A DNA stretch of 64,000 bases from a virus. Of the stretch, positions 5,878 through 43,883 are shown piece after piece. The stretch is taken from positions 1 through 64,000 of the IMG/VR virus record IMGVR_UViG_3300021365_000005, one strand, 5' to 3'. A program made the translations under genes and the position numbers. Positions within the stretch are counted from its first letter, which is position 1. Every line of letters starts with the position of its first letter. The notes under the pieces were generated by a model. It did not search any database and was not told where the DNA came from. It saw only the letters and a list, made by a program, of their open reading frames with translations.

Positions 5878-5917
5878 CAAATATACGAAACTATTGGTGA
5901 TATAAAAAATATATCAC
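5878..5917 (-). promoter_or_regulatory. Dyad-type promoter of the kinase/asparagine synthetase/TS/dut operon
   Basis: A perfect 8-bp inverted repeat with a 5-nt A/T loop (GTGATATA at 5897-5904, TATATCAC at 5910-5917) is centred 22 nt upstream of coding-strand TATATTTG (5878-5885). Five other genes carry the same arrangement. TATATTTG fits the TAnnTTTG -7 box known from Bacteroidetes promoters, but a matching -33 TTTG is not evident. Confidence 0.55.
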
Positions 5918-5969
5918 AGGGTATTTCACAATAGCCCGTAATATATTCTCGTTATCCAGTCGTCACGTC

Positions 5970-7838
5970 TCATAAAGCTTCTACTGTGCAGCTTCCGCCG
6001 CTACAAGCTAATTCCCCTGATAGGTCTGTATTGTCTTCCATTTCTACTACACGGGTAAGATCTATAGAATTTAAAGATTCTATCATTGACTCATACTGGG
6101 CTTTAGTTATGTCTTCAAATGGGGCTTGAACGTATGTTCCTCCATCATGTGGTAGTACTGATAATCCATTATAAGATTCTCTGTTTTCCCACATCCACTC
6201 TCCGACTGGTTCCCAATCCTTTTCTTTAAGAGAAACTGTTGCAGATACGTTGTGGGTATTAGATCCGTTTCTATGTCCAGGTTTAACCCATTCTGTAGCT
6301 ACCTTTTTGATTCTTTCTAATAGATCGAGAGGTTTTTCTGTACGAAGGATTGCTCCTCGGGGAGCTTTCTGAGGTATACTAATGACCGCAGTGTCATGGG
6401 CTCTAAAATAGTCATCTTCAACTAATTCCGGATGGTACTCCATTAAATATCCATAAATAGCTTCGTTTTTACCAACGCGAAGTCTTCGGATATAATATGT
6501 ATTGTGCCATGCATGAATTCCAGAGGATGTTCCTAGTACTAATGATGTTGTTCCTGCAGGCTTTACCGTAGTTATTCTTGCTGCTGGATTAATACCTAAT
6601 ATTTTAGCCATTCTAGTATTTTCTCTTTTTGCTATGCTTGAAGCTTTTTTAAGATCATACTTTAATACTTCACCAGATCCAATACCAGTCATTGAAACCC
6701 CTACCAAAGCATCTTTTTCTGTGGTCTCTTTCCAGACTTCTCTAAGGTAGTGAAAGTCTGTATATGAAGCTTGGATAGTTCCAATAAATGAAGCTACTTT
6801 AACCCTTTTATTAAAATCTTCTTGAGATTCTATATTAGATACATTTACTTCGCATAGGTTACAAAACTGATAAGGTCGAAGAGCAATTTCGCAACAAGGA
6901 TTAGTTCCCCAGTCTTTATCATTTGACAAGTAAATTCCTGGCTCTCCAGCTCCAGATAACTCTACACGCTTCCATAAGTCCATAAAAAATTCTTTTGTTA
7001 TTTTATGACGCATTAGGACTGCTGAATTGTTTGCACGACCTCGCTGGGCATTTAGTTCCCACCAATTTCCAGATTTACAAGAAATCATTTTTTCATCTGT
7101 AGCTGTAAATAGGCTAATAAGAGCTGCTCTTCGAATACCACCAGCTAGTACTGCGTCTGCAATATGGCAAACAATATCATGTACTTCTAGTGTTGATAGT
7201 CTGTCGCCTTCTAACTTAGCCTCAAGAATACCTTCGATTTTTAAAATGCACTCTTTTAGTGGCTGAGGTCCTGGGGCTTTACCACCTGATGTTACTAGCA
7301 TTGCACCTTTAGGTCTGATATCCGAATAGTCAAATTTAATCCTGGATCCTCTTTTGTTTCCTAGGAATGACTTCATAAGTACCTTAATAGCATCTGCCCA
7401 TCCTTCTATAGAATCTCCTATTACAAACCTTCGTTCCCGTTTTGGGAATGGCTTTAAAACGTGGGGTAATTGATCTACGTGATGGTTTTGCACACTATAG
7501 CCAACTCCACAGCCACTAAGTAATAAAAACATTGTTTCACTAAAAGAGTCAATATGATCTATAGGCAAATAGCTGCAATTATAAAGTCTGTTAGGAGAAA
7601 TTTCTATCGGACGACCTCCGAATTGTAAGCTTCGCATAGATGGCAATACTTTTTTAGAATATACAAATTTATAACATTCTTCTATTTCCTTAGCCAAGTC
7701 AGGGAATTTTTTTATATGCATAGCTTTGTTGCGATCTACTAGCTCTTCCCATGTTTCCCTTCTATTTTCATCGGGTGTGTATTTTGCATACTTCATATGC
7801 ACTGTCAAATCAGACAGGATTTTATTCGATATATTCAT
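5970..7838 (-). CDS. nrdJ: Class II (adenosylcobalamin-dependent) ribonucleotide reductase
   Basis: Reduces ribonucleotides to deoxyribonucleotides using a B12-generated thiyl radical. LYNCSYLPI contains one redox Cys (C88), NPCCEIALRPYQFCN (from residue 313) carries the active-site Cys/Glu motif typical of class II enzymes, and the C-terminal CSGGSC (C612, C617) is a CX4C relay pair. No NrdB-type radical subunit is present in the window, consistent with class II. At 622 residues it is compact. GAGGA precedes the ATG. Whether it acts on di- or triphosphates is not clear from the sequence. It would depend on host cobalamin. Confidence 0.93.
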   Translation of the reverse strand: MNISNKILSDLTVHMKYAKYTPDENRRETWEELVDRNKAMHIKKFPDLAKEIEECYKFVYSKKVLPSMRSLQFGGRPIEISPNRLYNCSYLPIDHIDSFSETMFLLLSGCGVGYSVQNHHVDQLPHVLKPFPKRERRFVIGDSIEGWADAIKVLMKSFLGNKRGSRIKFDYSDIRPKGAMLVTSGGKAPGPQPLKECILKIEGILEAKLEGDRLSTLEVHDIVCHIADAVLAGGIRRAALISLFTATDEKMISCKSGNWWELNAQRGRANNSAVLMRHKITKEFFMDLWKRVELSGAGEPGIYLSNDKDWGTNPCCEIALRPYQFCNLCEVNVSNIESQEDFNKRVKVASFIGTIQASYTDFHYLREVWKETTEKDALVGVSMTGIGSGEVLKYDLKKASSIAKRENTRMAKILGINPAARITTVKPAGTTSLVLGTSSGIHAWHNTYYIRRLRVGKNEAIYGYLMEYHPELVEDDYFRAHDTAVISIPQKAPRGAILRTEKPLDLLERIKKVATEWVKPGHRNGSNTHNVSATVSLKEKDWEPVGEWMWENRESYNGLSVLPHDGGTYVQAPFEDITKAQYESMIESLNSIDLTRVVEMEDNTDLSGELACSGGSCTVEAL

Positions 7839-7870
7839 AAACTATATTTCCTCTAGTAAATTGGTGTAGT

Positions 7871-7880
7871 AATAAATATC
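7871..7880 (-). promoter_or_regulatory. GATATTTATA-type box (one mismatch) before nrdJ
   Basis: Coding strand GATATTTATT, about 32 nt before the nrdJ ATG, in the helicase-nrdJ gap. It is a variant of the box found before most structural genes. Confidence 0.4.
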
Positions 7881-7894
7881 CACATATGTGTATA

Positions 7895-9250
7895 TTACTT
7901 TGGTTGTGCTTCGTTTAATTCGGTAAATTTTTGAGCCAACATTTTTCTCATAAATTCGCTACTTCCATTTATTTGTTGTTGAGTTTCTTGGCCCTGCAAT
8001 GTGCTAGCTTCAAATATTTCTATCATTCCATTCGAAGCATTTATTTTGCTTGGTAGGGTTATACCATCTGGACCAAATCTATTTTTAATAACGTGCCATC
8101 GACCTGTTCCAGCAACCTTATCTTCAATCTTACGGGATAAAGATGCTACAAAGTCGGCTGTCATAATTTTTGAATAATCCTCTGCAATTTTATCTGCTTG
8201 GATTACATCTTCTTGTAATGCCGACCTATTGGCCTGAGAGGCCGTCCAAATTGGTATTTGGTATTCTCCTGCCATACCTCTAAGGTCTTCATATATATTT
8301 CCAATCTCAAATCTTTTTTCTTTGCCTTGACCTTTTAGTAGGTCTGCATAGTCTACTATTATTAGATCTGGTTTTTTATCATTAATTCTGCATCTTTCTA
8401 GGTGAGCACCTAAAGCGTTAACCCCAGCGCCTTTTGTTGGATAGTATTTAATTGTTAATTCTCCAGGTAGTTCGCCTACTATTTTAGCAACTTTTTCTTG
8501 GTGAAACCGTAAGTCTTGAGCAGCTATTCCTGTAAATACTGAATCATATCGTAGCCCTACATAATGTTCATTTAACTCTAAAGTATAATGGACTACATTA
8601 AGGCCCGCTTTAACAGCATTTGCTCCTATATTAACTAAGGCCCAAGATTTTCCAATACCAGCTGGTGCTACTATAACTCCCAATTCCCCACTGCCAAGTC
8701 CACCGTCAGCTAAATCGTCAATAACACTCCAACCAGTAGTAACAGTATTTCTTACAGACTCTTCATACCTTAAAGCTATTTCTGTATTATAATCGTGACC
8801 AAGGTTTTTTTCTACTCCTGCTTTCATTGCATCATCAATCTTAACTTTAATGGCATCAAACTCACCATGCTGTAGCAGATCTACAGATTCAACTATGGCT
8901 TTTTTCAAAGCTTGATTTTTACAAAAGTCTAATGTTTTAGTCTTAACAAATTCTAGGTCAGTTGCCTCAAATTGTTTGTAGATATCCTTTAAATGGGATT
9001 TAATCGTTTCAACTAATAAAGCATTTTCAATTTCATCTAATTGTACTTTCATTACTTCCATAGTCGGAGCATCTTTATACTCTTGGAAGTATTCCATTAT
9101 TGTGCCAATTATAAACTGATTTGCTTCAGACTCGAAAAACTTAACATCGAGGATGTCAGAAATTTGTTGTAGAAATAGGCGGTCTGTAAAAAGGGAGGAT
9201 ATTAACTTTATTTGAAAGTTGTACCCCCAATCGGAAATTCTATCGGTCAT
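7895..9250 (-). CDS. 41: Replicative DNA helicase, DnaB/gp41-like
   Basis: Hexameric 5'-3' helicase expected to unwind the fork ahead of gp43. The C-terminal RecA-like domain has Walker A APAGIGKSWAL near residue 198, Walker B DLIIVDYADLL near residue 300, and an IPIWTASQANRS motif like the DnaB Q/sensor region. The N-terminal part has the short helical domain expected of DnaB proteins (ISSLFTDRLFLQQI). Its 451 residues are close to T4 gp41 (475). It lies directly downstream of the 5' nuclease, an arrangement that groups the replisome genes. Confidence 0.93.
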   Translation of the reverse strand: MTDRISDWGYNFQIKLISSLFTDRLFLQQISDILDVKFFESEANQFIIGTIMEYFQEYKDAPTMEVMKVQLDEIENALLVETIKSHLKDIYKQFEATDLEFVKTKTLDFCKNQALKKAIVESVDLLQHGEFDAIKVKIDDAMKAGVEKNLGHDYNTEIALRYEESVRNTVTTGWSVIDDLADGGLGSGELGVIVAPAGIGKSWALVNIGANAVKAGLNVVHYTLELNEHYVGLRYDSVFTGIAAQDLRFHQEKVAKIVGELPGELTIKYYPTKGAGVNALGAHLERCRINDKKPDLIIVDYADLLKGQGKEKRFEIGNIYEDLRGMAGEYQIPIWTASQANRSALQEDVIQADKIAEDYSKIMTADFVASLSRKIEDKVAGTGRWHVIKNRFGPDGITLPSKINASNGMIEIFEASTLQGQETQQQINGSSEFMRKMLAQKFTELNEAQPK

Positions 9251-9257
9251 GGATATC

Positions 9258-10307
9258 TTATAATTTTAAACCTGCCATAGTGTCTAAATAGATAAACGAA
9301 TCCCTAAGCCAAAACTCTGGGTTGTTTACTATCCTCATCCGATCCTCTTGCAAGTATTTTAAGAACTCTGATGGTACCAATCGTGATGTTGGTTGCTCTA
9401 CGATATTTCGAATGGATTCTTTAGCCACTCCAGATATATCAACTTCATGTAATTGCATTAATTGGAAATTAAGATCTAGAAGCTTTTCGGAGGTTGCTAT
9501 AGCATCTAATACTTTAGCTTCTTCTTTTCTTTGCTTGGCATCTTTTATCACATCATCCATTGAAACAATAGTATCTCCAAATAACATTGGGAGACGTTTT
9601 TCTAAGGTTTTTTGTCCAAGACCTTTAATTCCTGGTATGTTGTCGGACTTATCCCCAGTTAGAGACTTATATAAAATATAGTTTTCAGGTCTTAGCTTAA
9701 ACCTATCTTTCATATCCTGCTTAAAATAAAACTTTTTTGCTGTTGGAGACCAAACTGCAATCTTATCATTTATAAGCTGTAAAAAGTCTGTGTCCGTAGA
9801 CATAATAAAGTGTTGGCTATCTGGAAGAACCTGCTTTGCTATATATGCTATAGCATCATCAGCTTCTATTTTTTCAGTAGCCATTACAGTTACAGGAAGA
9901 TGTTCTAGATACTCAGTTAGTCTGTGTATTTGTTGGCCCATAAAAACCCGTTCATCTTCACCACTTGAATTAGAATTTATTCGAGTTAAGCGGTTATTGA
10001 CTGTTCTTTGGGCTTTGTAGTTTGGAAATAGCTTTTTACGTCTAGCAGATCCTCCCTTGCCATCAAAACAAATAATAACTCTAGTTGGCTTGATATGCCT
10101 TATAGCATACCCAATTGAAAGGAGGAATCCAGTTATGCCGCCGATATGTATTCCATCTTCGTTAGTTGCTGGGTTACATGTGTATGATCTGATAAACGTA
10201 TTAAGTCCATCTATTAACAGTACACGATCGTTAAGCCCCCGTGGGGTGGAATCCTCCTTTAGATTGGCTAGAATGTCTAGATATTTAACCTTGTGGGACA
10301 TCGTCAT
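9258..10307 (-). CDS. 5'-3' exonuclease / RNase H (FEN-like, T4 Rnh-like)
   Basis: Flap endonuclease family protein that would remove RNA primers from lagging-strand fragments. LLIDGLN near residue 31 supplies the first metal-binding Asp, ICFDGKGGSARRK is the second acidic block with the helical-arch Lys/Arg residues, EADDAIAYI and MSTDTDFLQL carry further metal ligands, and GDKSDNIPGIKGLGQKT is the helix-3-turn-helix DNA-binding motif. At 349 residues it is a little longer than T4 Rnh (305). Its start overlaps the uvsX 3' end by 23 nt; an ATG two codons on (10301) is an alternative. Confidence 0.92.
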   Translation of the reverse strand: MTMSHKVKYLDILANLKEDSTPRGLNDRVLLIDGLNTFIRSYTCNPATNEDGIHIGGITGFLLSIGYAIRHIKPTRVIICFDGKGGSARRKKLFPNYKAQRTVNNRLTRINSNSSGEDERVFMGQQIHRLTEYLEHLPVTVMATEKIEADDAIAYIAKQVLPDSQHFIMSTDTDFLQLINDKIAVWSPTAKKFYFKQDMKDRFKLRPENYILYKSLTGDKSDNIPGIKGLGQKTLEKRLPMLFGDTIVSMDDVIKDAKQRKEEAKVLDAIATSEKLLDLNFQLMQLHEVDISGVAKESIRNIVEQPTSRLVPSEFLKYLQEDRMRIVNNPEFWLRDSFIYLDTMAGLKL

Positions 10308-11409
10308 TGCCTATTTCGATGTCATCAATACCTATAGCATCAGTCTTATAATCCATAATCATAGAATCACAAATCTGATTATATAGCCTGTCTTTGCGTT
10401 CAGGGTCATTCAATACCTTAGTTTCGAACTCTTTGGATTGAAATTTAATAATCTCTCCAGTCGTTTCATCGGTATATGTATACCAAGCTCCAGCTTGTGA
10501 TACTAATTTAGCATCCTTCATCATTTGTAGCCAGGACCCATAATCATCAATACCACTATCAAATAGAATATTAAATTCTGCTGTTCGTAGTGGTGGCCCC
10601 ATTCTGTTTTTGACTACTTGAGCTTTGGTTTTTATACCAATGACTTGATCTTTACCATTGACTTTGACTTTAATCTGTCCCGCAGCTTTTAGTCTTAGCC
10701 TACAACTTGCATGAAAGCCAATTGCCTTACCGCCTGATGTAGTGTATGGGTCTCCAAACATAGCACCAAGCTTAACCCTTAGCTGGTTTGTGAATATTAA
10801 GCATATTCTTTGGCGACCAATCATCTGAGTTATCTTCCTCATTGCTTTTGAAAGAATAATAGCTTTTTGAGTTGCCCAACCTGTCTGGTCAAAATCGTCA
10901 GCCTGTTCCACTTTGGTAGTGGCAGCAGCTACTGAATCAACAACAATAGAAACTAATCTATCTTTGTCAGATTCTCTTACTTTAGTAATAATGTTTTCGA
11001 TAACTTCAAAGATATCTTCAACTGTTTCCAATTGGATATACAACATTTTAGAAACGTCAATACCAATACACTTTGCAAAATCTTCATTCATTGCATTTTC
11101 AGTATCGATATAAACTGCCAGTCCACCTTGTTTTTGGGTGTTGGCCAGAAGATGGGCAGCTAGCAGGGATTTCCCGCTAGCTTCTAAGCCCGTCAATTCT
11201 GTTATTCGTCCTACAGGTAAGCCTCCATTCTTGCGGTTAGAAATAGCAAGGTCTAATATACTTGAACCTGTACTAATCCATTCTTCTAGATCGGTAGGAG
11301 TTTCTTCCGAACCATCTAAAAAATACGCAACTTTGAACGACTTAAACTTTTTATTTAGTGAATCTGCTAATGTATTAGCTAGATCGTCTGTTTTTTGAGA
11401 TTTAGACAT
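10285..11409 (-). CDS. uvsX: UvsX/RecA-like recombinase
   Basis: ATP-dependent strand exchange for recombination-dependent replication and repair. Walker A GLEASGKS lies near residue 72, followed by GLAVYIDTENAMN (RecA YIDTE with the catalytic Glu) and the Walker B region VSIVVDSVAA. The loop regions are QLRVKLGAMFGDPYTTSGGKA, here split across L1 and L2. The 374-residue length resembles T4 UvsX (391). The acidic C-terminus (IEIGNDDVPQG) is typical. It forms a tight cluster with gp32 upstream and the 5' nuclease downstream. No clear Shine-Dalgarno precedes the ATG. Confidence 0.93.
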   Translation of the reverse strand: MSKSQKTDDLANTLADSLNKKFKSFKVAYFLDGSEETPTDLEEWISTGSSILDLAISNRKNGGLPVGRITELTGLEASGKSLLAAHLLANTQKQGGLAVYIDTENAMNEDFAKCIGIDVSKMLYIQLETVEDIFEVIENIITKVRESDKDRLVSIVVDSVAAATTKVEQADDFDQTGWATQKAIILSKAMRKITQMIGRQRICLIFTNQLRVKLGAMFGDPYTTSGGKAIGFHASCRLRLKAAGQIKVKVNGKDQVIGIKTKAQVVKNRMGPPLRTAEFNILFDSGIDDYGSWLQMMKDAKLVSQAGAWYTYTDETTGEIIKFQSKEFETKVLNDPERKDRLYNQICDSMIMDYKTDAIGIDDIEIGNDDVPQG

Positions 11410-11414
11410 TCAGA

Positions 11415-12194
11415 TTAGCTAAATAGATCGTCAAATGCAGCTGAAATGTTATCGGTCTTTTTGACACTTGCTGGAGCATCTGTTGCTGTATCCTTAAAGG
11501 GACTTTCGGACTTTGCTGTTGGAGAAGTAGCTTCAGCTTCTTCACCACCATTAAGCCAAGTCGCTAGAGCAGCTTTTAAGTCGTCATACGTGCACTTTTT
11601 GTAAATATCGAAGATATCAGTTTGACCGTTCATTACCATTTCTGCAACATTTTTATCTTCTGTTGCTGGTGTAACATTAGGCTTAACCATGATTGTAGTC
11701 TTTGGATATCTTTCACTTCCTTCTGGAGGAGTGTAAGTAATAACTAAGTCACGACCTGATGTCGGGTCTGTGATGTCTCCATAGTCAGGATCAGCAATAA
11801 ATGTTAATAGCTCTTGGTAGACCTGTTTACCAAATCCCCACATTTTAACACCTTCTGATTCTTTTCCACGAACTAATACTGGTAGATATGTACGCATTTT
11901 AGGTTCTAGCTTTTTCCCTAATTTCCAGTCATCTGAATTACCTGAAGACTTTAGTTGCTCTGCAAATTCGACGACCGGATCCGGTTCTCCGAAAGTTACA
12001 GGAGATAAAAAGTTTCGCTTACCTAGATCATAATGAAAGTATAATTCCATAAATGGATTGTCTTTATTGTGCTGATAGGGTACTATACGTAGCTGGTTTT
12101 TACCTGGTTCTGGTTTCCAAAGATTAGATACTCTTTGGTTAGTTGTTTGAAGCTTATTTAGCTTGTTTCGGATTGCATTTAAATCAATTGCCAT
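11415..12194 (-). CDS. 32: Single-stranded DNA-binding protein, gp32-like
   Basis: Coats ssDNA and recruits replication and recombination proteins. The N-terminus is basic (RNKLNKL) as in the gp32 cooperativity domain, an OB-fold core follows (LWKPEPGKNQLRIVPY to VYQELLTF), and the tail is acidic, ending ISAAFDDLFS, the protein-interaction tail. Unlike T4 gp32, the region expected to carry the zinc-binding His/Cys residues has no Cys; only one Cys occurs in the whole protein. Start supported by AAGGAG five nt upstream. The neighbour is uvsX, as expected for co-expression. Confidence 0.88.
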   Translation of the reverse strand: MAIDLNAIRNKLNKLQTTNQRVSNLWKPEPGKNQLRIVPYQHNKDNPFMELYFHYDLGKRNFLSPVTFGEPDPVVEFAEQLKSSGNSDDWKLGKKLEPKMRTYLPVLVRGKESEGVKMWGFGKQVYQELLTFIADPDYGDITDPTSGRDLVITYTPPEGSERYPKTTIMVKPNVTPATEDKNVAEMVMNGQTDIFDIYKKCTYDDLKAALATWLNGGEEAEATSPTAKSESPFKDTATDAPASVKKTDNISAAFDDLFS

Positions 12195-12224
12195 TGGTTC
12201 TCCTTTTAATTGTTAATAGACATG

Positions 12225-12262
12225 TAAATATAAGACATAACTTTTTAAATAAAAAATTATTT
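12225..12262 (-). promoter_or_regulatory. Dyad-type promoter of gp32
   Basis: Inverted repeat at 12247-12262 (AAATAA/TTATTT arms) centred 22.5 nt upstream of TATATTTA (12225-12232). Same layout as upstream of the kinase, bS21 and PolA-like genes. Confidence 0.55.
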
Positions 12263-12267
12263 GTTGG

Positions 12268-13191
12268 TTAGTTTTCAAAATTTGTCATATAATCTTGAAT
12301 AGATAATTCTTTTGCTTTAGATTCCACCATAATATCTAGTGGTAGCCCCCACGAGTTGATTTTGTCGTGGATGTAGTCTGAGTGAGCTTGCGGCTTTATT
12401 TTTGGATTATTTTCGTGCAAGGCTTTAGATTCTGAGTAGTGTACACATTGCTTGATGCCATCTGGCCAAGTTTTAGATGCTAAGTGTAGTGCAGCTTCTT
12501 CGGATAGATCCCCAGTGCAAAACTTGTGGTGGTGATAGTCGAAGACAATAGGTATGCCAATAACTTTATGTATACCATGGTACAAATCCATTACAGAATA
12601 CATTGAAGCACGGTCGTCGTTTTCTATAGTAAGCCTAGCTTGTGCACCAGGACTAAGACGTTTAAAGCTTTCGCAGAAGCGAGCCATTGCTGCTATTTTG
12701 TCGCCATATGCGCCACCAACATGTATATTGATTTTTGCATAGTTGGATTGTGGTAGGCCCATTAGATCCATGACTTCCGCATGTTGGTTTAATTCGTGGA
12801 TTGATTTGTCTACGACTGACGGGGATGGGGAAGCCAAGACCACAAATGGACCTGGATGGAATGATAGACGCTGATTGTATGATTTAGCCAGTGTGCCAGC
12901 ACCTTTTAATATGTTTGATATTTTAGTGTAGTCTGGCAGATCTGATATTGCATACTCCGACATCCAAGGAAATATACCTGATGACATGCGAAATAGCTTG
13001 ATACCATTTGCATGATTCCACTTTATAATTTCCACTAAGTCTTTTGAATTTTGCAATGCTAATTCAGATGCATACTGAATGCCTTTAGCGTTAAATGTTT
13101 TTTTGATCATTGACCGACTTGTAAATATACCCGACTTTCGGAGGTGGGTATTGATACATGCATATCCTAATTGTGTTTCCATATTATCCAT
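12268..13191 (-). CDS. uvdE: UV damage endonuclease UvdE/UVDE-like
   Basis: TIM-barrel endonuclease that nicks 5' of UV photoproducts. Family signatures in order are LGYACINTHLR near residue 8, RMSSGIFPW, LSFHPGPF, NIHVGGAYGDK, LTIENDD and VFDYHHHKF. These supply the His, Glu and Asp metal ligands of the trinuclear centre. Its 307 residues match bacterial UvdE. M4 is an alternative start. It lies just upstream of gp32 and uvsX with its own promoter-like element. T4 uses the unrelated DenV for this task, so the enzyme choice is lineage-specific. Confidence 0.9.
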   Translation of the reverse strand: MDNMETQLGYACINTHLRKSGIFTSRSMIKKTFNAKGIQYASELALQNSKDLVEIIKWNHANGIKLFRMSSGIFPWMSEYAISDLPDYTKISNILKGAGTLAKSYNQRLSFHPGPFVVLASPSPSVVDKSIHELNQHAEVMDLMGLPQSNYAKINIHVGGAYGDKIAAMARFCESFKRLSPGAQARLTIENDDRASMYSVMDLYHGIHKVIGIPIVFDYHHHKFCTGDLSEEAALHLASKTWPDGIKQCVHYSESKALHENNPKIKPQAHSDYIHDKINSWGLPLDIMVESKAKELSIQDYMTNFEN

Positions 13192-13204
13192 TTTGTATAC
13201 TACT

Positions 13205-13235
13205 AATATACGACTTATTTAGTAAAGACTACGAT
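13205..13235 (-). promoter_or_regulatory. Promoter-like element of uvdE
   Basis: Coding strand ATCGTAGT (13228-13235), 17 nt, then TATATTAG (TATATT at 13205-13210). Identical words and spacing to the DNA polymerase element. Confidence 0.5.
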
Positions 13236-13253
13236 GTTAATCGTTAAAAAACG

Positions 13254-13598
13254 TTATTTCCAGAATAGTTGCACACAGATAATACCTGTTGACAATATCA
13301 AGGATGTTAGAGTTTTAAGGTTAATACCTTCGCTCATAAAGTAACTAGTTAGTAAGGCATATGCCACCATACCAAAACCAAAGCCTAAAAAACGGCCAGG
13401 CCATAATAGACCATCAAAATATTGATATGAATACTTAGTTGCTTGAATAAATAGATATGAAATAATTGAACCCATACCGACTGCTAGTAGCAGGGGGTTG
13501 CGTTTGAACCATGGCCATAGAAATTGACCATTTACTTGGAACCAAATTAGGGTTTGTCCGCCGAGGAACAGGCTTATAGCCAGTAAAAGTTTATGCAT
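13254..13598 (-). CDS. Small four-helix membrane protein, unknown function
   Basis: About 114 residues with four hydrophobic stretches separated by short loops: LLLAISLFLGG, LLLAVGMGSIISYLFI, FLGFGFGMVAYALL and TLTSLILSTGIICVQLF. It is probably an inner-membrane protein. The frame is also open from a TTG at 13607, but I prefer the ATG at 13598 (MHKLLLA). The topology resembles small transporters of the drug/metabolite type, yet no family motif is clear; a role in host takeover, superinfection exclusion or lysis timing cannot be read from sequence. Confidence 0.6.
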   Translation of the reverse strand: MHKLLLAISLFLGGQTLIWFQVNGQFLWPWFKRNPLLLAVGMGSIISYLFIQATKYSYQYFDGLLWPGRFLGFGFGMVAYALLTSYFMSEGINLKTLTSLILSTGIICVQLFWK

Positions 13599-13625
13599 AA
13601 TATTCAATCTTTAATTAGTACTTAG

Positions 13626-13663
13626 TAAATATAATAAATCTTTTGTAAATAAAAAAATTTATT
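13626..13663 (-). promoter_or_regulatory. Dyad-type promoter of the membrane protein gene
   Basis: Inverted repeat AATAAA...TTTATT at 13648-13663, centred 22.5 nt upstream of TATATTTA (13626-13633). Confidence 0.5.
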
Positions 13664-13682
13664 GGTGGTTATTTTTTAATTA

Positions 13683-14234: not shown

Positions 14235-14239
14235 GTTGA

Positions 14240-14602
14240 CTAAACGTTTCTAAATTTAGGAGCCCCTTTTACAGCCTGGACATTACGAAAGTCTGAGTCT
14301 ACATAGATATAGTACTTTTCACTGCCTTTAGTTAGGTAGTGGACAACAAAGTTTTCGAAGTCTTGGTATGATTTAACACCTGTAAGCTGGTCCTGTGCGA
14401 TTTCACCATCAGTAGCCATTTTATCCAATGCAGATTTTTTACCAGATGGGAAGTTTTGAAATTCCCAACCATTATCGAACATATTCTGAACGAAGTCTTC
14501 AAAATTACTAGCTTTAACTACATCTTGTGGATGTGTGAATGCTGATTCATATAAGTATTTTTCATTCCATTCGCGAATGTTAAATTTTTTAGGTCTTGAC
14601 AT
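14240..14602 (-). CDS. Unknown protein, paralogue of the gene at 43896
   Basis: 120 residues. From THPQDV to the C-terminal AVKGAPKFRN it aligns throughout with the 43896-44237 protein: shared THP(Q/K)D, GWEF, FPS, KS.LDK, DG, Y(L/V)T.G and AVKG.PKFR. The two lie 29 kb apart, so this is an old duplication. Its N-terminus is longer (MSRPKKFNIREWNEK) but still reaches LYES, as in the other copy. Start supported by AAGGAT. Function unknown; if the tag hypothesis holds, both may be internal head proteins. Confidence 0.65.
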   Translation of the reverse strand: MSRPKKFNIREWNEKYLYESAFTHPQDVVKASNFEDFVQNMFDNGWEFQNFPSGKKSALDKMATDGEIAQDQLTGVKSYQDFENFVVHYLTKGSEKYYIYVDSDFRNVQAVKGAPKFRNV

Positions 14603-14636
14603 TATAATATCCTTTTTTTTGAAGGGGGGCCTTTAG

Positions 14637-14665: not shown

Positions 14666-14668
14666 ATA

Positions 14669-14678: not shown

Positions 14679-14685
14679 AAGGAGT

Positions 14686-17185: not shown

Positions 17186-18184
17186 TCACAAAGCCAAAGG
17201 TCTCATGGCATCATAATTCTTACCATACTTTGATTTGGTTGGTAGGCCCATCAGGGCTTTTAGTTCGAACAATAGGGATTTGCCATCTTCAGGGGCAACG
17301 TCAAACAAAAATGAATCGTAGGTATATAGAACCAATTTGGTTTTACGATCTTTTAATAGTGCTTGAATTTTTTCCATAACTTCGATATTTTTTTCGGTCT
17401 CATAGGCTTGGATTAAATAATTAAATAATTTCTGAGGAGACATGTCCTCATAATTCTTTTTATAAAACCTTCTACCAAAGATCGGGGTCTCGATGTAGCC
17501 CCTCTCATTATAATTATCCCATAATTCAAAAATATAGGTCTTAGTCTTCTTAAAGTATTCTATGTTCTCAAACTCCTTCGGTATACCTCCATAGAGCACC
17601 CTAAACGAGATCCTTTTCGACTCTTCATATTCCTCATTGGTCAAGTTATTAGTGTCAAAGTACATTTTTCCAAGATGAGAGTGAACTGAGGGTTCTGAGA
17701 ATTCATAGTCGATAAGTCCAGCTATTAACCTTAGGTGGTAGGCATCATAGTCAAACTCAACTAAAACTCCTGAGTCATGTCTACTAATAAACCTTGCCCT
17801 AGACTTGTCGTCTTTGTTTAATGCAGCATAGTTTACCCCATTGTTGGTGTTTGAAGGTCTACCGGTAAGTGTATACAAGTTGTATTTAGAATGTTCTGTG
17901 CCTGTTGTTGTGAATATGCCGTTATCTTCAATTGCTTCAAATAGCGGAGCAATCCTATCTATATATGTTTCTTCACATATTGCCTTAGGCATACCTGCTA
18001 GCACTCTGGAGTTTATTGCTTCCTGCTCTCTGTGCTTGTTTTTTGGTATAATCATATGAACATCATTTCTATTCCAGTACTTATGACTAAAAAATTTAAA
18101 TATTGGTAGCTGAATGGTTTCCAGATCGGTGGCTTTCCCAGTGTTCAGGTAGCTACGAATTGAAATCTGCTTCAGGATATCCAT
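17186..18184 (-). CDS. Compact family A DNA-polymerase-like protein
   Basis: The C-terminal two-thirds match the Pol I palm and fingers. TLTGRPSN (106-112) is the TGR element. Motif A is FDYDAYHLR with catalytic D145. HSHLGKMYF follows. Motif B is K190xxxF194xxxY198G. NYLIQ (255-259) is the N...Q element, and motif C is YTYDSFLFDV with D290 (HDE changed to YDS). Both catalytic Asp residues survive. The first 90 residues are unlike Pol I, and no 3'-5' exonuclease is present. At 332 residues it is far smaller than Pol I. The motif B Arg equivalent to Pol I R754 is Tyr. Activity as polymerase, terminal transferase or repair enzyme is open. Confidence 0.75.
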   Translation of the reverse strand: MDILKQISIRSYLNTGKATDLETIQLPIFKFFSHKYWNRNDVHMIIPKNKHREQEAINSRVLAGMPKAICEETYIDRIAPLFEAIEDNGIFTTTGTEHSKYNLYTLTGRPSNTNNGVNYAALNKDDKSRARFISRHDSGVLVEFDYDAYHLRLIAGLIDYEFSEPSVHSHLGKMYFDTNNLTNEEYEESKRISFRVLYGGIPKEFENIEYFKKTKTYIFELWDNYNERGYIETPIFGRRFYKKNYEDMSPQKLFNYLIQAYETEKNIEVMEKIQALLKDRKTKLVLYTYDSFLFDVAPEDGKSLLFELKALMGLPTKSKYGKNYDAMRPLAL

Positions 18185-18190: not shown

Positions 18191-18227
18191 AATATACGAA
18201 ATAAAAGCTATAAATAAAAATATTTAT
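18191..18227 (-). promoter_or_regulatory. Dyad-type promoter of the PolA-like gene
   Basis: Inverted repeat ATAAATA/TATTTAT at 18210-18227, centred 22.5 nt upstream of TATATTGG (TATATT at 18191-18196). The ATG lies only 6 nt after TATATT, which would give a nearly leaderless transcript. Confidence 0.55.
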
Positions 18228-18769
18228 GAGGTTATTTTAGCTAGGTCATCTGCAGGAAGAACTAGCGGTAGTTCCGGAAATTTATCTTTGTGAATAGCCA
18301 TAGACCTCTGGTTGGTGTCTATAATGCCAGTTTTAACAATTGTACCACTAGAATTAGGTATATCATTTAAAGGTCCAGATATTTTCCACACTAGCTTTAT
18401 TGCTGCATACAAGTTTTTTAGAATTATGTCTTTTTTCTTGTAGATAGTATATGTTGGTTTTGAAACTTCATAAATAGTTTTTGTATATAGGTTTTTAACA
18501 AAGTACCTATTTATTCTTGAAATGGCGTAATCTTTTTCTAAAGGACTAGGTTTAAAGCTTACAGGATCGTCTAGGTGTTGGCCAAATGTAGGATGTAAGC
18601 CATTAAATTCTAATGCTTCTACGCCAAATTGAAATTCACTAAGCCTAGTAGAAGGTCTAGGATCGTCTACTCCTGAATATGGAAAACCTTTGTAATAGTG
18701 ATATAGGCCTACATACTCTTTTCTAGTATCGACCAATATAAATTCCGAGCCTTGAGTGGAGTAGATCAT
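18224..18769 (-). CDS. Unknown tail-region protein
   Basis: 181 residues, no family recognised. It is rich in Tyr and Lys, with a helical middle (KKKDIILKNLYAAIKLVWKI) and no membrane segment. The start overlaps the stop of the hub-candidate gene upstream (ATGA), implying co-translation in the tail operon. Position after the hub candidate and LysM protein suggests a baseplate or hub-associated part. The name cannot be made more specific from sequence. Confidence 0.55.
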   Translation of the reverse strand: MIYSTQGSEFILVDTRKEYVGLYHYYKGFPYSGVDDPRPSTRLSEFQFGVEALEFNGLHPTFGQHLDDPVSFKPSPLEKDYAISRINRYFVKNLYTKTIYEVSKPTYTIYKKKDIILKNLYAAIKLVWKISGPLNDIPNSSGTIVKTGIIDTNQRSMAIHKDKFPELPLVLPADDLAKITS

Positions 18770-33455: not shown

Positions 33456-33608
33456 TTACTTTTCCGGTTTTACTTTTACTTTTTCAGGCTTTTGATGTAT
33501 AGTTGCAACCTTATTTAATAGCGCTGCTACTACATGAGAATCTCCTCCTCGAATTTGGAGCTCTGACAATGCTTTGTGTATTAATGCTAATTCTTCTTTT
33601 TCAAACAT
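33456..33608 (-). CDS. Small unknown protein (50 residues)
   Basis: Reads MFEKEELALIHKALSELQIR through to a Lys/Pro-rich tail ending KVKPEK. AAAGGA precedes the ATG and a dyad-type promoter lies upstream. Helical N-terminus, basic C-terminus. No family recognised; the promoter and ribosome-binding site argue that it is real. Confidence 0.55.
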   Translation of the reverse strand: MFEKEELALIHKALSELQIRGGDSHVVAALLNKVATIHQKPEKVKVKPEK

Positions 33609-33639: not shown

Positions 33640-33674
33640 AATATATGACAAAAAGTTTACAATAAAAAATTATT
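33640..33674 (-). promoter_or_regulatory. Dyad-type promoter inside the fibre cluster
   Basis: Inverted repeat AATAA/TTATT at 33661-33674, centred 22.5 nt upstream of TATATTAG (TATATT at 33640-33645). The dyad overlaps the last codons of the 33670 gene. Confidence 0.5.
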
Positions 33675-33837
33675 GGGTGATTATTTTTTGCAATTTTACT
33701 GCTGTTTGGTAAACTAGCTGAACATCTTTGCCATCAAATTTAGAGTCTGCTACTAGTTTTAATAGGAATTCTAATTCTTCTTTTGATAAAGTTGTTGAAA
33801 TTTTTTCTTTCTTTTTGTCTTTGGATAATATTCCCAT
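33670..33837 (-). CDS. Small unknown protein (55 residues)
   Basis: Reads MGILSKDKKKEKISTTLSKE, then EELEFLLKLVADSKFDGKDV and a basic end (LQKIITQ). It is similar in size and layout to the adjacent 50-residue protein (both have a KEEL-type helix), so the two may be related. The Shine-Dalgarno is weak (AAGAG). Confidence 0.5.
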   Translation of the reverse strand: MGILSKDKKKEKISTTLSKEELEFLLKLVADSKFDGKDVQLVYQTAVKLQKIITQ

Positions 33838-35913: not shown

Positions 35914-35941
35914 TTATTTTCTCTCCATTACTGCTTTTGAT

Positions 35942-37777: not shown

Positions 37778-37798
37778 GTTGTTTACTCGTTATAGATT

Positions 37799-38980: not shown

Positions 38981-38998
38981 TGGTTTTAAATCCTTTTA

Positions 38999-39008
38999 TA
39001 TAAATATC
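38999..39008 (-). promoter_or_regulatory. GATATTTATA box before 37799-38980
   Basis: Coding strand GATATTTATA overlaps the last bases of the 39007 gene and is followed by TAAAAGGA. Confidence 0.5.
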
Positions 39009-39627
39009 AGTTGCCAAGGTAAAAGTCCCCGGAGGCACTATAGAACATACCACCAGTAACTGGGGTAGGAGTTGTGTCGAATTGGCCTAATATTGTTACC
39101 CCCTGGAGGTTTATTACAAATTTAGTGTCTTCAGAGTTATGAGCTCTAACTACAAATAAGTCATTTACCCCATCTCCCTGAATGCTTACTTTTGAACTAG
39201 TAACTAAAGGAGCAAATAATGATTCAGAAAGATGTAGTTCGTGCTGAGGGTTTATAATGTGTAGTCCTACATTATCACCAACAACTGTGAATGGATTCCC
39301 AATTATATTACCAAATGCAGGGTTGGCTATAGCAGCAGGAAAAGCCATATTGTCTGTAACGGTTACTGCAGTAGAGTCTGCAATTGTTATAGCAACTTGG
39401 TTTGGCGAATCAACTGCGACTTGAACTTGAACGGTTGTTGCAGGCTCTGTTGATATGTTTTCAACGACTGGGGAAGTTGTTATGGTACCACCCTCTAATA
39501 CACTAACAGCAGAACTTATTGATATAGTGCCACCTGCTAAAATATCATTAATATCTAGACTATATACAGCAATGTCGGAAACACTTATCGATTCTGAATC
39601 GTCATGTATTTCAACCGATTGTAGCAA
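39007..39627 (-). CDS. Virion protein, TTG start or read-through partner of the gene upstream
   Basis: 206 residues. The first available start is TTG at 39627, since no ATG occurs before residue 93; it lies in the same frame as the gene upstream, separated only by TAA CTA. Content: acidic N-terminus (IHDDSESISVSDIAVYSLD), beta-rich middle, and GMFYSASGDFYLGN at the end, a typical fibre tip. Probably a fibre-associated protein. Whether it is initiated at TTG or made by stop read-through cannot be decided here. Confidence 0.55.
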   Translation of the reverse strand: MLQSVEIHDDSESISVSDIAVYSLDINDILAGGTISISSAVSVLEGGTITTSPVVENISTEPATTVQVQVAVDSPNQVAITIADSTAVTVTDNMAFPAAIANPAFGNIIGNPFTVVGDNVGLHIINPQHELHLSESLFAPLVTSSKVSIQGDGVNDLFVVRAHNSEDTKFVINLQGVTILGQFDTTPTPVTGGMFYSASGDFYLGN

Positions 39628-39630
39628 TAG

Positions 39631-40002
39631 TTATCTCGTAACTTCTGGAGATAACTTTATCGAGCCTTGTAGTAATCTAGTTACTGTTGAAGAAGCAGGA
39701 TCTTCTATTTCAATATCATAAACTGCTGAATCAAATGTGTAGTTCTTTGTAACAGATGCTTCAATTCTAAGCTGTATAGTACCACTAGCTGTGGAATTGG
39801 TAGTAGCTAGTATAGTCATGCCACTTCCAGTTTCAAATGACCCTCCAACCACAGGAGCAGCATCTGTTATAGCATCTCGTATATGCATTCGTACTAAATA
39901 GCCATTTAGATCTACAACATTAGCACTTGAATCTTTATATGTGAATTGCTTTACTACTGTTGTTCCTTGTTCTATGGTAAAATTATAAATGCCGGCTGCC
40001 AT
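39631..40002 (-). CDS. Small virion protein, Ig-like candidate
   Basis: 123 residues, beta-rich throughout (IYNFTIEQGTTVVKQFTYKD, GTIQLRIEASV, YDIEIEDP). Looks like a single immunoglobulin-like or carbohydrate-binding domain common in phage structural proteins. TAGGAG precedes the ATG. The stop TAA is followed in frame by CTA TTG of the next gene. Confidence 0.6.
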   Translation of the reverse strand: MAAGIYNFTIEQGTTVVKQFTYKDSSANVVDLNGYLVRMHIRDAITDAAPVVGGSFETGSGMTILATTNSTASGTIQLRIEASVTKNYTFDSAVYDIEIEDPASSTVTRLLQGSIKLSPEVTR

Positions 40003-40034
40003 GTGGGTCTCCTAAACGTGATTGTACTTCCATA

Positions 40035-40044
40035 TATAAATATA
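40035..40044 (-). promoter_or_regulatory. TATATTTATA box before 39631-40002
   Basis: Coding strand TATATTTATA about 33 nt before the ATG, downstream of phoH. Confidence 0.5.
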
Positions 40045-40067
40045 CAAAAAAGTACTAAATGAATACA

Positions 40068-40748
40068 CTATAAAACTTTACCAGGTCTATCTTCATAAGC
40101 CTGAAGTATAAGTTTTAGTATTGGGTGTCTGTGATTTTCTAATAACTCGATGGTGTGTAGTCCAGCTACAGTTTTAATTGATTGCAAAAACTTTAACCCA
40201 GACTCTCCTGTAGACTTTAGATCTATTTGATCTGAATCTCCGCAAAACAACATTTTAGATCCTTTACCTATTCTTTGAAGAATCATTAAGGTTTGTTCAT
40301 GGGTCAAGTTTTGGGCCTCATCTACAATTATTACAGAATTTGTAAAAGTACGGCCTCTCATATAAGATACAGGAACTATTTCAATTTGTCTATTACTTAT
40401 CATAGCGTCTATACGCTCGCGCCTAAGTAGCTGATACATGTTTCCATATACAGGTGCTACCCATGGATCCATTTTGTCATCAATACCTCCTGGTAGATAT
40501 CCCAGATCTTCTTTAGATATTGTAGGCCTTGTGATTATTATTTTTTCAACATGTTTATCTAAGGCTAGGTTTAGTGCTATTTGACATGCTAATAAGGTTT
40601 TTCCAGATCCTGCATTTCCTAGTACGATTGACACATCATTTTCTAAGATTATAGACTTTGCTTTTTTTTGCTCTGGGTTTAGAGATAATAAAAACCTATA
40701 TCCTTTTTTATTATTTTTAGGCTTAACTTTTGAAAAACTTGTAGACAT
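40068..40748 (-). CDS. phoH: PhoH-like P-loop ATPase
   Basis: 226 residues with Walker A GNAGSGKT near residue 44, TRPTISKEDLGYLPG, Walker B IIVDEAQN and the PhoH-specific GDSDQIDLK. PhoH proteins are ATPases, often viewed as RNA-associated, widely carried by marine phages; their phage role is not settled. It has AAGGAG and its own GATATTTATA box after the capsid terminator. Confidence 0.92.
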   Translation of the reverse strand: MSTSFSKVKPKNNKKGYRFLLSLNPEQKKAKSIILENDVSIVLGNAGSGKTLLACQIALNLALDKHVEKIIITRPTISKEDLGYLPGGIDDKMDPWVAPVYGNMYQLLRRERIDAMISNRQIEIVPVSYMRGRTFTNSVIIVDEAQNLTHEQTLMILQRIGKGSKMLFCGDSDQIDLKSTGESGLKFLQSIKTVAGLHTIELLENHRHPILKLILQAYEDRPGKVL

Positions 40749-40768
40749 TAAGATCTCCTTTTCTTTAC

Positions 40769-40778
40769 TATAAATATC
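40769..40778 (-). promoter_or_regulatory. GATATTTATA box before phoH
   Basis: Coding strand GATATTTATA just past the capsid gene terminator, 21 nt before the phoH ATG. Confidence 0.55.
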
Positions 40779-40784
40779 TCACAC

Positions 40785-40816
40785 AAAAAAAGAGACTCAA
40801 ATTAATGAGCCTCTTT
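40785..40816 (-). terminator. Intrinsic terminator after major capsid gene
   Basis: Minus strand AGAGGCTCA pairs with TGAGTCTCT (one G-T) around TTAATT, followed by a T-run. Starts about 25 nt past the gp23 stop. Confidence 0.85.
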
Positions 40817-40840
40817 CGTAGAATTATACTAAACTTAAAC

Positions 40841-42349
40841 TTAAAGGATGTTTGAAACTGTTAGCTTAGCGTAGAAGTCTTTACGAACTACTTTCTTAGC
40901 ATAACGTGTCATTACACCTTTACGTGGAGTAAAGTTGTTTGGATCATAAACCAATGGAGTCATGATTAGTGGGATATATGGAGCGTAAACCGCACCTGTT
41001 TCAAGGAATTGATTTCCTCGGAATCCTATAATCATATCTGCAGAGTTCCAATATGGATTCTTGTAAACCTTATAACGGTTTGCAAAGTTTCCAATTTTTT
41101 CTACACCTGCTGCAAATCCATCTGTATTTCCATCTGTATCTACTGCGAAACTAGGAATAGTTTCAAGAACAGTAGCAACATCAGGAGAACAAACGATAAA
41201 GTTTGCACCACCACGCATTGTCGCTCTGTGGATCTTATTAGATAGCTTTTGGATTTCATATCCAATAGTAGCATTGTGTGTACCTAACGTGTAAGCCCAA
41301 GGACCTGAAGACGTTTGATATCCCTTAGCAGAAGCATTTGTTGGATCACCGACCCAAGTGCCGCTAAAGCCAGCAGAAGAGTGTAGCATTTCAAGGATCT
41401 CTAGATCGATTTCCATTGCAATGTACTCAGATAACATTGAAGTTAATTCTGCTTCAGCATCAATTGAGTGATACGCATTTAAATCTTGTGCAAACTCTGG
41501 AGTCCATACAACTTTTAACTTACGTGTCTTAGCAACTAAAGCCTCTGACTCTAGAGAAACCTCTAGTTCTGGAATATTTAGTTGAGCTTCCTCAAGTTCA
41601 TTTCCAACAGTGTGCTGGGCCTCGAAATCACCACGAAGACCAGCTGCAGTAGATACATCACCATTCTGTTCAAGTTGGTGATAGTGTACTGTTACAACGT
41701 CAGTTGCACCAGGCATACCACTGAATGTTACCTCACCGGTTGCTTGATCAAAAGAAGTAGCAGCGTATTCAGTAGATCCTGATACAGCGTATGCTGAAAG
41801 ACCCATGTCTAAATCTGCCTTTGTAAAGCCACCTGCATTAAGCTTGGTTCCCTTAGCAGCTAGAGTAACTGAAGCAGTTGATTGGGGAGCTCGCATAGAG
41901 TAAGCAGAACGACCAGGACCAGGATAAAGACCTTTTGTAAAGTCAGTTGTAGCTGCCTTTCCGTTTGATCCGAATATTGACTGTGTGTTGTCTACTGGGA
42001 ATTTATCATTACCATATTTGAAATCCAACCAGAAAACTAGACCTGAAGGTAAGTTCATTGGTTGTACCGATACGAAATCTTTTGCTGAGATTTCTGCAAA
42101 GATACGTCTTACTAGGGGAAGAGCTACGCCATTCCACTCATCATTAGCTGTTGCAGTGTTGTTTGCCTCAGAGATAAGTTGTTTAGCTTGGTTTTCCAAA
42201 AGAATAGCAGTGTTATGTTTATCATATTCACCACCAAGTCCTTCTAAAAGTCCAGTCTTTTCCCATTTAGTAACGTAGCCTTGTGTTTCATTGCGTTGTG
42301 TCGCAAATGCTGCCTTAGAATCTTGCAGCAAGTTTGAAATATTTGACAT
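40841..42349 (-). CDS. 23: Major capsid protein, gp23-like
   Basis: 502 residues (T4 gp23 has 521); forms hexamers of the head. MNLPSGLVFWLDFKYG and VVWTPEFAQDLNAYH (with K before it) and the C-terminal RYAKKVVRKDFYAKLTVSNIL are typical of gp23. Candidate gp21 cleavage sites with (L/I)xE are GLLE near residue 37 and QLISE|ANNT near residue 61, near the T4 position (about 65). TAGGAG precedes the start; no separate box, so it is probably co-transcribed with gp22. Confidence 0.97.
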   Translation of the reverse strand: MSNISNLLQDSKAAFATQRNETQGYVTKWEKTGLLEGLGGEYDKHNTAILLENQAKQLISEANNTATANDEWNGVALPLVRRIFAEISAKDFVSVQPMNLPSGLVFWLDFKYGNDKFPVDNTQSIFGSNGKAATTDFTKGLYPGPGRSAYSMRAPQSTASVTLAAKGTKLNAGGFTKADLDMGLSAYAVSGSTEYAATSFDQATGEVTFSGMPGATDVVTVHYHQLEQNGDVSTAAGLRGDFEAQHTVGNELEEAQLNIPELEVSLESEALVAKTRKLKVVWTPEFAQDLNAYHSIDAEAELTSMLSEYIAMEIDLEILEMLHSSAGFSGTWVGDPTNASAKGYQTSSGPWAYTLGTHNATIGYEIQKLSNKIHRATMRGGANFIVCSPDVATVLETIPSFAVDTDGNTDGFAAGVEKIGNFANRYKVYKNPYWNSADMIIGFRGNQFLETGAVYAPYIPLIMTPLVYDPNNFTPRKGVMTRYAKKVVRKDFYAKLTVSNIL

Positions 42350-42370
42350 TATTGTCTCCTAAATTTTAAA

Positions 42371-43282
42371 TTAAATTAAACCGGCAAGCTTACGCATGCG
42401 GTCTGAAAAGTTGTTTGATTCTACAATCACCGATTTGTTTGGTGCAGTAGATTTTGTAGATTTTGAAGCTAAGCCTTCAGTCATTGAAGATTTAGTTCCG
42501 CCTTTGCCTACGATTGATTCAGCAAGTGTTGAATAGACCAACTTAACTTCGCGAACTGATGCTGCTCTATCGAACGTTTCAATTACACGTAGCTTTTGTG
42601 ATTCATTCAAGTTATTAGCTCTGAAAAGTTTATTAGAAAATAGTAGCTTAGCATTTAGTAAGTTAACCTCATTGATCTTAGATCTTAGGAACTTAATAGT
42701 AGCATAAGCTTCTTCTAAATCAGATTCACCAACGACTTCTTTATCGTCTTCAGCTTCTTCATCTTCTTCTCTTAGTGCATTAATAACTTCTTCGAGGTCG
42801 AATTCTTCATCGTCCTCTGTTGCATCTTCTGTTACAGGCTCTTCTTCTTCAGCAGCGGCGTCTTCAGCGACAGGGACTTCGTCCTCATCTGTTTCAGTTC
42901 CGGCTTCTAGTTCACGAAGGATAGCTTCTAACTCGAGGTCATCTTCAGATTGTTCACCTTCAGCTTCTGCTGCAACTTCTGCATCATCTTCTTCAGGGGC
43001 CATTTCTGCGTCTTCGTCATACATACCTTCAACCTCTGTATCTTCTTCATCTGCTGTGAGTTCTGCAACGGGATCAGTTTCTTCTTCAGAATCCATTGCC
43101 ATTTCAGCAGTGGGAACTTCTTCTTCTTCTTCGTCTTCGTACTCTTCACGAATTTTAGTAGATAACATAGACTGGAGTTTGGGCGTAAACGCTTCTTCTA
43201 AAGCTAATTTTGCATTTGCAATTGCAGTCTGACGGACTGCCTTAGCATCAGCTATAGCTTCTTTTAATAGGTCTTTTGACAT
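42371..43282 (-). CDS. 22: Prohead core scaffold, gp22-like
   Basis: 303 residues. N-terminus MSKDLLKEAIADAK, then an extended acidic block (residues about 45-195, dozens of D/E) and a basic helical C-terminal part (LRSKINEVNLLNAKLLFSNK, SFSDRMRKLAGLI-like end). T4 gp22 is likewise acidic and is degraded by gp21. It precedes gp23. The acidic block is larger than usual. AAGGAG supports the start. Confidence 0.9.
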   Translation of the reverse strand: MSKDLLKEAIADAKAVRQTAIANAKLALEEAFTPKLQSMLSTKIREEYEDEEEEEVPTAEMAMDSEEETDPVAELTADEEDTEVEGMYDEDAEMAPEEDDAEVAAEAEGEQSEDDLELEAILRELEAGTETDEDEVPVAEDAAAEEEEPVTEDATEDDEEFDLEEVINALREEDEEAEDDKEVVGESDLEEAYATIKFLRSKINEVNLLNAKLLFSNKLFRANNLNESQKLRVIETFDRAASVREVKLVYSTLAESIVGKGGTKSSMTEGLASKSTKSTAPNKSVIVESNNFSDRMRKLAGLI

Positions 43283-43328
43283 ATTATTCTCCTTATATTA
43301 TAATTAGGAAATAAGACTATTAGGAGTC

Positions 43329-43400
43329 TCAATAAAATTGTTTTGGATTGCATGTCTTGCCACATATTACGGATGGGGCATTTTTGCATGCTGGTTTCAT
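43329..43400 (-). CDS. Possible 23-residue Cys-containing peptide
   Basis: ATG at 43398-43400 reads MKPACKNAPSVICGKTCN then a short end and TGA. No Shine-Dalgarno. It fills the otherwise non-coding 43283-43493 gap with the bS21 terminator. Three Cys in 23 residues is unusual, but chance cannot be excluded. Confidence 0.2.
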   Translation of the reverse strand: MKPACKNAPSVICGKTCNPKQFY

Positions 43401-43433
43401 AATATAAGTATATATGAATTTATAAAAGCCCAC

Positions 43434-43466
43434 AAAAAAAAGACCAAAGACGCTAAATCTTTGATC
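43434..43466 (-). terminator. Intrinsic terminator after bS21 gene
   Basis: Minus strand GATCAAAGA pairs with TCTTTGGTC (one T-G) around TTTAGCG, followed by eight T. It lies about 28 nt past the bS21 stop. Confidence 0.85.
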
Positions 43467-43493
43467 TAATTTAAGTTTTATATGAAAATTAAC

Positions 43494-43820
43494 TTACATT
43501 GCTGTGCCGCCGCCTTGGCTGTCTTCTATAATAGCGGTCCAAATATAACCATCTTCTAGTTTTTTCTGGGCTTTCCATCTAAACTGCTCGTTACGACAAG
43601 CTTCGATTCGGGCTCTTCGTTTAACAGAAGTTGGTTTGGTATATGTTCGGCGATTCTTATACTCGTCGATTTTACCAGCTTCTTTTAGATTTTTTTTAAA
43701 ACTTCTTAATGCACCTTCAAGTGCTGCTGAAGAATCGTCTGGCACCCTTACTCCAGTTCCACTTTTATCTAGTGTGAAGTCACTTCTTTTATAGCGCTTA
43801 CGCTTTTTATAATCTTCCAT
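43494..43820 (-). CDS. rpsU: Ribosomal protein bS21 homologue
   Basis: 108 residues. Residues about 31-75 match the bS21 core: LEGALRSFKKNLKEAGKI, then YKNRRTYTKPTSVKRRARIE. bS21 binds the 30S platform next to the anti-Shine-Dalgarno. The N-terminus (30 residues, KKRKRYKRSDF) and the Trp-bearing C-terminal extension (about 30 residues, RWKAQKKLEDGYIW) go beyond bacterial bS21 (about 70). The gene has a dyad-type promoter and a terminator but no Shine-Dalgarno. Phage bS21 is known from some marine phages. It probably joins host ribosomes to bias translation. Confidence 0.88.
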   Translation of the reverse strand: MEDYKKRKRYKRSDFTLDKSGTGVRVPDDSSAALEGALRSFKKNLKEAGKIDEYKNRRTYTKPTSVKRRARIEACRNEQFRWKAQKKLEDGYIWTAIIEDSQGGGTAM

Positions 43821-43846
43821 GTATACTTTATTAATTATTTACTATG

Positions 43847-43883
43847 TAAATATACAAAAAAATAGTTGATATAAAAAATTTAT
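43847..43883 (-). promoter_or_regulatory. Dyad-type promoter of bS21
   Basis: A/T inverted repeat at 43871-43883 centred about 23 nt upstream of TATATTTA (43847-43854). Confidence 0.55.

Follow-up and report, generated by a model that had tools for sequence, protein, structure and literature searches.

Nine sites on the coding strand of a phage genome share one composite motif, in which AAATAACC is followed after about 10 nt by an A/T-flanked T run and after about 14 nt more by TATATT. On the evidence of their sequence they are a real promoter class, most likely pre-late and of the Bacteroidota sigma-A type with a lineage-specific upstream box. The analysed stretch of DNA (the window) comprises bases 1–64,000 of a virus record of 97,456 bases.

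The gene content is that of a T4-like myovirus, including DNA polymerase, ribonucleotide reductase, DnaB helicase, gp32 and tail sheath as well as a gp23-type capsid, portal and terminase. The genomic GC content is 37 %, and the minus strand is the coding strand for nearly all genes of the record. Named relatives among the best matches of the major capsid protein include Flavobacterium phage immuto (49 %), Microcystis phage Mel-JY01 (47 %) and Rhodothermus phage RM378 (36 %). Since the capsid relatives include immuto and RM378, with Flavobacterium and Rhodothermus as hosts, the host of the phage is likely a member of the Bacteroidota. Records of relatives were gathered via the capsid, gp32 and PolA-like proteins, and a distant-DNA search in named phages gave no match.

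A preliminary description had reported six sites with A/T dyads in the window. At each of these, all on the minus strand, TATATT was confirmed together with an A/T inverted repeat centred 21.5–23 nt upstream:

5880–5885, minus strand: TATATT of site 1 (putative -7 box); the 179-aa gene 5312–5851 starts 28 nt downstream
5897–5917, minus strand: dyad of site 1, GTGATATA-TTTTT-TATATCAC, around the T run; strongest dyad among the nine sites
5919–5927, minus strand: upstream box of site 1, GAAATACCC, of the AAATAACC family
12227–12232, minus strand: TATATT of site 2, 32 nt before the gp32 gene (11415–12194)
12247–12262, minus strand: dyad of site 2, AAATAATTTTTTATTT
12266–12274, minus strand: upstream box of site 2, AAACTAACC
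13628–13633, minus strand: TATATT of site 3; the 114-aa membrane-like gene 13254–13598 follows after 29 nt
13648–13663, minus strand: dyad of site 3, AATAAATTTTTTTATT
13667–13675, minus strand: upstream box of site 3, AAAATAACC
18191–18196, minus strand: TATATT of site 4, 6 nt before the ATG of the PolA-like gene 17186–18184; leaderless geometry
18210–18227, minus strand: dyad of site 4, ATAAATATTTTTATTTAT
18230–18238, minus strand: upstream box of site 4, AAAATAACC, within the end of the preceding gene 18224–18769
33640–33645, minus strand: TATATT of site 5; the 50-aa gene 33456–33608 follows after 31 nt
33660–33675, minus strand: dyad of site 5, CAATAATTTTTTATTG, overlapping the end of gene 33670–33837
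33679–33687, minus strand: upstream box of site 5, AAAATAATC
43849–43854, minus strand: TATATT of site 6; the bS21 gene 43494–43820 follows after 28 nt
43871–43883, minus strand: weak dyad of site 6, ATAAATTTTTTAT; orthologous sites in relatives are predicted long RNA hairpins, broken here
43888–43896, minus strand: upstream box of site 6, AAAATAACC

A matrix built from the six sites retrieved three extra members in the remaining record, with TATATT at 71456 (upstream of a primase-like gene), 87174 (upstream of a 70-aa gene) and 90768, which brings the family to nine sites in 97 kb. In leave-one-out matrix scans of both strands, each of the nine ranked first genome-wide with scores of 32–47, the best non-site score being only about 7–10. 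Taken singly, the upstream box, the T run and the spacer all discriminate, to differing degrees, between the sites and the 146 other TATATT of the genome. The AAATAACC box is conserved at -42 to -34 relative to TATATT and on the upstream side only; it is intergenic at some sites and at others falls inside the last part of the preceding gene, and its retention in both settings therefore indicates that it acts as a DNA element. A search with the strict consensus pattern returned zero matches, and a plain sigma-70 scan was uninformative (50 found vs 68 expected in shuffles).

Stems of at least 6 pairs at the dyad offset were present at 6/9 sites vs 1/106 coding TATATT (Fisher P = 2e-7, a partly circular value as six sites had been chosen for their dyads); a similar rate of such pairs in coding DNA, which the preliminary description had named as evidence to the contrary, was not found. 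That A/T-rich intergenic DNA often yields such pairs by chance might be argued from the low GC content and from stems of at least 6 pairs at 51 of 887 T5 places. Given the leave-one-out ranks, the position of all nine sites on the coding strand, their orthologous conservation in relatives and the lack of equal-scoring sites in shuffled or coding DNA, we consider chance a nearly negligible explanation.

The promoter layout is best compared with that of Bacteroidota sigma-A (sigma-ABfr), for which the B. fragilis consensus comprises TTTG near -33 and TAnnTTTG at -7 (PMC7366714), the -7 box of F. psychrophilum spanning -12 to -5 (PMC9723704). With TATATT at -12 to -7, the phage sites would share this -33/-7 layout, including a T-rich box at -33 at about equal spacing; the identity of this box as a -33 element is a lead. 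TAnnTT is kept in 9/9 sites and TTT at the -33 offset likewise in 9/9. The phage lineage differs in having a T run for TTTG, the next base being T rather than G, and in its AAATAACC box and A/T arms. Moreover, TATATT is followed by the expected TG of TAnnTTTG in only 1/9 sites, which counts against sigma-A as the best explanation. Across the relatives, 667 distinct intergenic TATATT have T at 43–51 % exactly at -24 to -20 and enriched nowhere else, and no comparable enrichment is present at 4066 coding TATATT. ATTTGG occupies the place of the T run in records G004 and G005, and upstream of gp32 the cultured relative Mel-JY01 carries TTTG-N20-TATATTTG, the exact B. fragilis sigma-A consensus.

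The PolA-like gene served as a ruler for the position of +1. Among its diverged orthologues (L155–L166), the gap between TATATT and the start codon measures 5–8 nt in 10 of 11 (6 nt in eight, 5 or 8 nt in two). With TATATT as -12 to -7, this constancy places +1 at the start codon and would therefore make the mRNA leaderless, so that the gene looks leaderless clade-wide.

From this layout we infer that host RNA polymerase with the Bacteroidota primary sigma factor would contact TATATT (-12 to -7) and the T-run -33 element, the flanking A/T arms presumably being part of the -33 consensus in this lineage, and that the AAATAACC box near -50, probably bound by a phage activator or the alpha subunit, would mark the class off. 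Because TATATT would occupy -12 to -7, the dyad centre falls at about -34.5, atop the -33 element, and the distance between dyad and TATATT would be constant because the arms belong to this element and the -33/-7 spacing is fixed. We hold it to be fairly probable that the pre-late class is read in this way by host Bacteroidota sigma-A via TATATT and the T-run -33 element, with a class-specific AAATAACC box. The earlier suggestion of a -35 substitute thus came close, since in a promoter of the Bacteroidota type the dyad would lie over the -33 element. It is also plausible, as suggested, that the regulon is early or middle: the class precedes replication and small genes (gp32, PolA-like, primase, bS21) and is distinct from the late-like class described below. 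Of the target genes originally named, gp32, PolA-like, bS21 and small genes stand, and nucleotide metabolism reduces to a sub-threshold AAA_14 match of gene 5312–5851.

Pairing is not the defining feature of the promoter class in the window. Most arms across the nine sites read AATAA(A)/TTATT, and the view that the arms differ in sequence was overstated: when right arms were dealt among the sites, pairing was nearly equal (6.00 vs 5.59, P = 0.15; P = 0.53 without site 5880), and the dyad here is therefore mostly the shared consensus AATAA-T run-TTATT. At sites 71456 and 87174 there is no good dyad (stem scores 4.5 and 3.5), although T run and upstream box are both retained; the dyad thus does not extend to the whole class, whose AAATAACC box had been missed in the preliminary description.

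In relatives, sequence comparison suggests that some selection on pairing exists. The arms of sister record G001 pair better than dealt arms (P = 0.004), and -22.5 is the top covariation centre clade-wide, both of which speak against sigma-A as the best explanation. The covariation shrinks to z = 1.8 when arms are dealt within lineages, and part of the clade-wide signal is therefore lineage make-up. Stems of at least 6 pairs occur in 21 of 27 own-clade sites vs 10 expected from dealt arms, and in the gp32 orthologues L082 and L083 compensatory changes from A-T to G-C accompany longer arms (AGATAA/TTATCT) relative to site 2. Together with the symmetry and the fixed centre, these features would suit a phage-encoded dimeric activator that binds the dyad at about -34.5 and replaces the -33 element, with a MotA-like place and cII-like symmetry. 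Such an activator, put forward in the preliminary description, finds no specific support in this genome, where 2/9 sites are without a dyad, the arms do not pair beyond consensus and the AAATAACC box is one-sided; relatives carry the asymmetric ATTTGGATAWGTC or TTTTTATGTC at the same offset, and their strong pairing is RNA-like (see below). Pfam searches of 8 records, which may be partial, gave no match to MotA or AsiA, albeit with no positive control, and PHROGs and Pfam scans of candidate regulators revealed no known activator. We therefore regard the dimeric activator as quite improbable. Upstream of gp32 in the relatives L084, L085, L092, L121 and L147, TATATT is preceded at about 15.5 nt by the centre of another inverted repeat, TTTC-N7-GAAA.

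T4 middle promoters, composed of a MotA box at -30 and a sigma-70 -10 element, resemble the present class in combining a host -10 element with a phage-specific upstream element and in serving similar kinds of genes (gp32, primase). They differ from the symmetric T-run element centred near -34.5 in this phage; the MotA box (TGCTTtA, 12 ± 1 bp before the -10 element) is absent from the aligned sites, and MotA acts as a monomer (PMC2988021).

The dyad might also represent an RNA hairpin at which the upstream transcript is intrinsically terminated or processed. Such a hairpin would overlap the following promoter, its loop containing the -33 T run and its U tract falling within the promoter spacer. 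Evidence in this direction comes mainly from the region upstream of phage bS21, where six lineages possess stems of 16–21 pairs (coding-strand z from -4.8 to -8.3) with a tract of 6–8 T and 2–3 G-U pairs per stem, and where pair types have changed in a compensatory manner at 11/11 compared stem positions. In addition, coding-strand RNA folds better than dealt-arm chimeras in all six lineage groups, the excess being larger on the coding strand than on the complement in most of them (own clade, z = -8.5 vs -3.6). Because the coding strand carries G-U pairs and T tracts, strong pairing in relatives reads as RNA rather than as a dimer site, and the most fitting interpretation of the pairing in some relatives is a terminator-like RNA hairpin that overlaps the promoter. 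Like intrinsic terminators overlapping promoters, the six bS21 regions contain an A tract, a G-U-containing stem, a loop, a T tract and TATATT. The stems of this phage differ in being short, A/T-only and mostly without a subsequent T tract: only site 5880 folds well, lacking a T tract, the other eight ranging from -0.1 to -6 kcal/mol, and at the bS21 site the hairpin is lost, with AACCCC as its left arm. Strong stems are furthermore confined to a minority of about 140 clade sites, and counts of G-U vs A-C mismatches at the dyad centre gave no clear RNA signal over all sites together, the signal being confined to the strong-stem subset. As a general account of the dyad, an RNA hairpin hence appears unlikely.

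Two further promoter classes were recognized. The first shares TATATT within AACGTTTTTTAACG-N7-TCGTAGT-N10-AAGTCG-TATATT (AACG box), lies ahead of the genes for DNA polymerase and an endonuclease as well as of small genes, appears early-like, and was detected beyond this record only in close relative G001 among the scanned records. The second, GATATTTATA / TATTTATATA, is late-like and precedes structural genes on the coding strand only:

2717–2762, minus strand: AACG-box site in the window
13205–13250, minus strand: AACG-box site in the window
92831, 93261, 96035 and 97066 of the record: further AACG-box sites
14669, 17173, 25638, 26778, 27354, 29504 and 32236, minus strand: late-like sites
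38999, 40035, 40769, 51154, 54321 and 58726, minus strand: remaining late-like sites

GATATTTATA is skewed 12:0 towards the coding strand in this record; across 12 related records, each with one favoured strand, the ratio is 104:2, and in Flavobacterium phage immuto it is 6:0. A sigma-like protein is encoded by the P0001 gene (84525–85301 of the record, minus strand; L002:725–1501). The predicted fold of its product resembles sigma-factor domain 2 over residues about 40–141 (1or7_B, Z 8.3, 91 residues, rmsd 2.4), and nearly all top ranks of a Foldseek search were sigma factors, none of them significant alone. No match was found to PDB sequences, and relatives among named phages are limited to immuto, Mel-JY01, LR756508 and RM378. 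P0001 may thus be a late sigma factor analogous to gp55; with a Z of about 8, a modest value for a helical protein, this identity is only a lead. In the possession of a separate GATATTTATA class before structural genes and of a sigma-like protein, the phage resembles the T4 late system with gp55; the difference lies in the nine-site dyad class, from which the GATATTTATA class of the same genome is separate.

The classes also differ in translation signals. Shine-Dalgarno sequences of at least 4 nt precede 0/6 genes of the AACG class, 3/8 of the dyad class and 14/17 of the late-like class (late-like vs rest, P = 0.001), and over all records examined 68 % of 97 late-like vs 25 % of 113 dyad-type genes, figures that are approximate because gene starts were called by simple rules. 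Phage bS21 has been proposed to favour late phage transcripts (Chen 2022, PMC9723584), and Flavobacterium ribosomes without bS21 shift mRNA selection (McNutt 2023, PMC9976891); the portions of these two reports available to us do not mention a Shine-Dalgarno split by promoter class. The ASD-blocking Tyr54 of F. johnsoniae bS21 (7jil_z) would correspond approximately to Asn77 of phage bS21, as counted from phmmer coordinates. In immuto, whose host is known to be a Flavobacterium, a search for bS21 gave no match and Shine-Dalgarno sequences are nearly absent.

A two-level switch is conceivable, though doubtful, on this basis. Early and middle mRNAs from pre-late promoters such as the dyad class, that of bS21 included, would mostly be devoid of Shine-Dalgarno sequences and be read by the unmodified Bacteroidota ribosome; phage bS21 would then replace host bS21 and expose the anti-Shine-Dalgarno, whereupon Shine-Dalgarno-bearing late mRNAs from GATATTTATA promoters would be translated. 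In relatives, the switch gene bS21 would be insulated by the terminator-like hairpin that surrounds its promoter.

The literature searched described no promoter map for T4-like phages of Bacteroidota and provided no direct precedent among phage promoters. The present result is a concrete map of three classes with exact coordinates and predicted +1, in which what looked like a dimer site is more readily interpreted as a -33 element. Combined with the presence of a phage bS21, the Shine-Dalgarno split would allow a direct test of why phages encode this protein.
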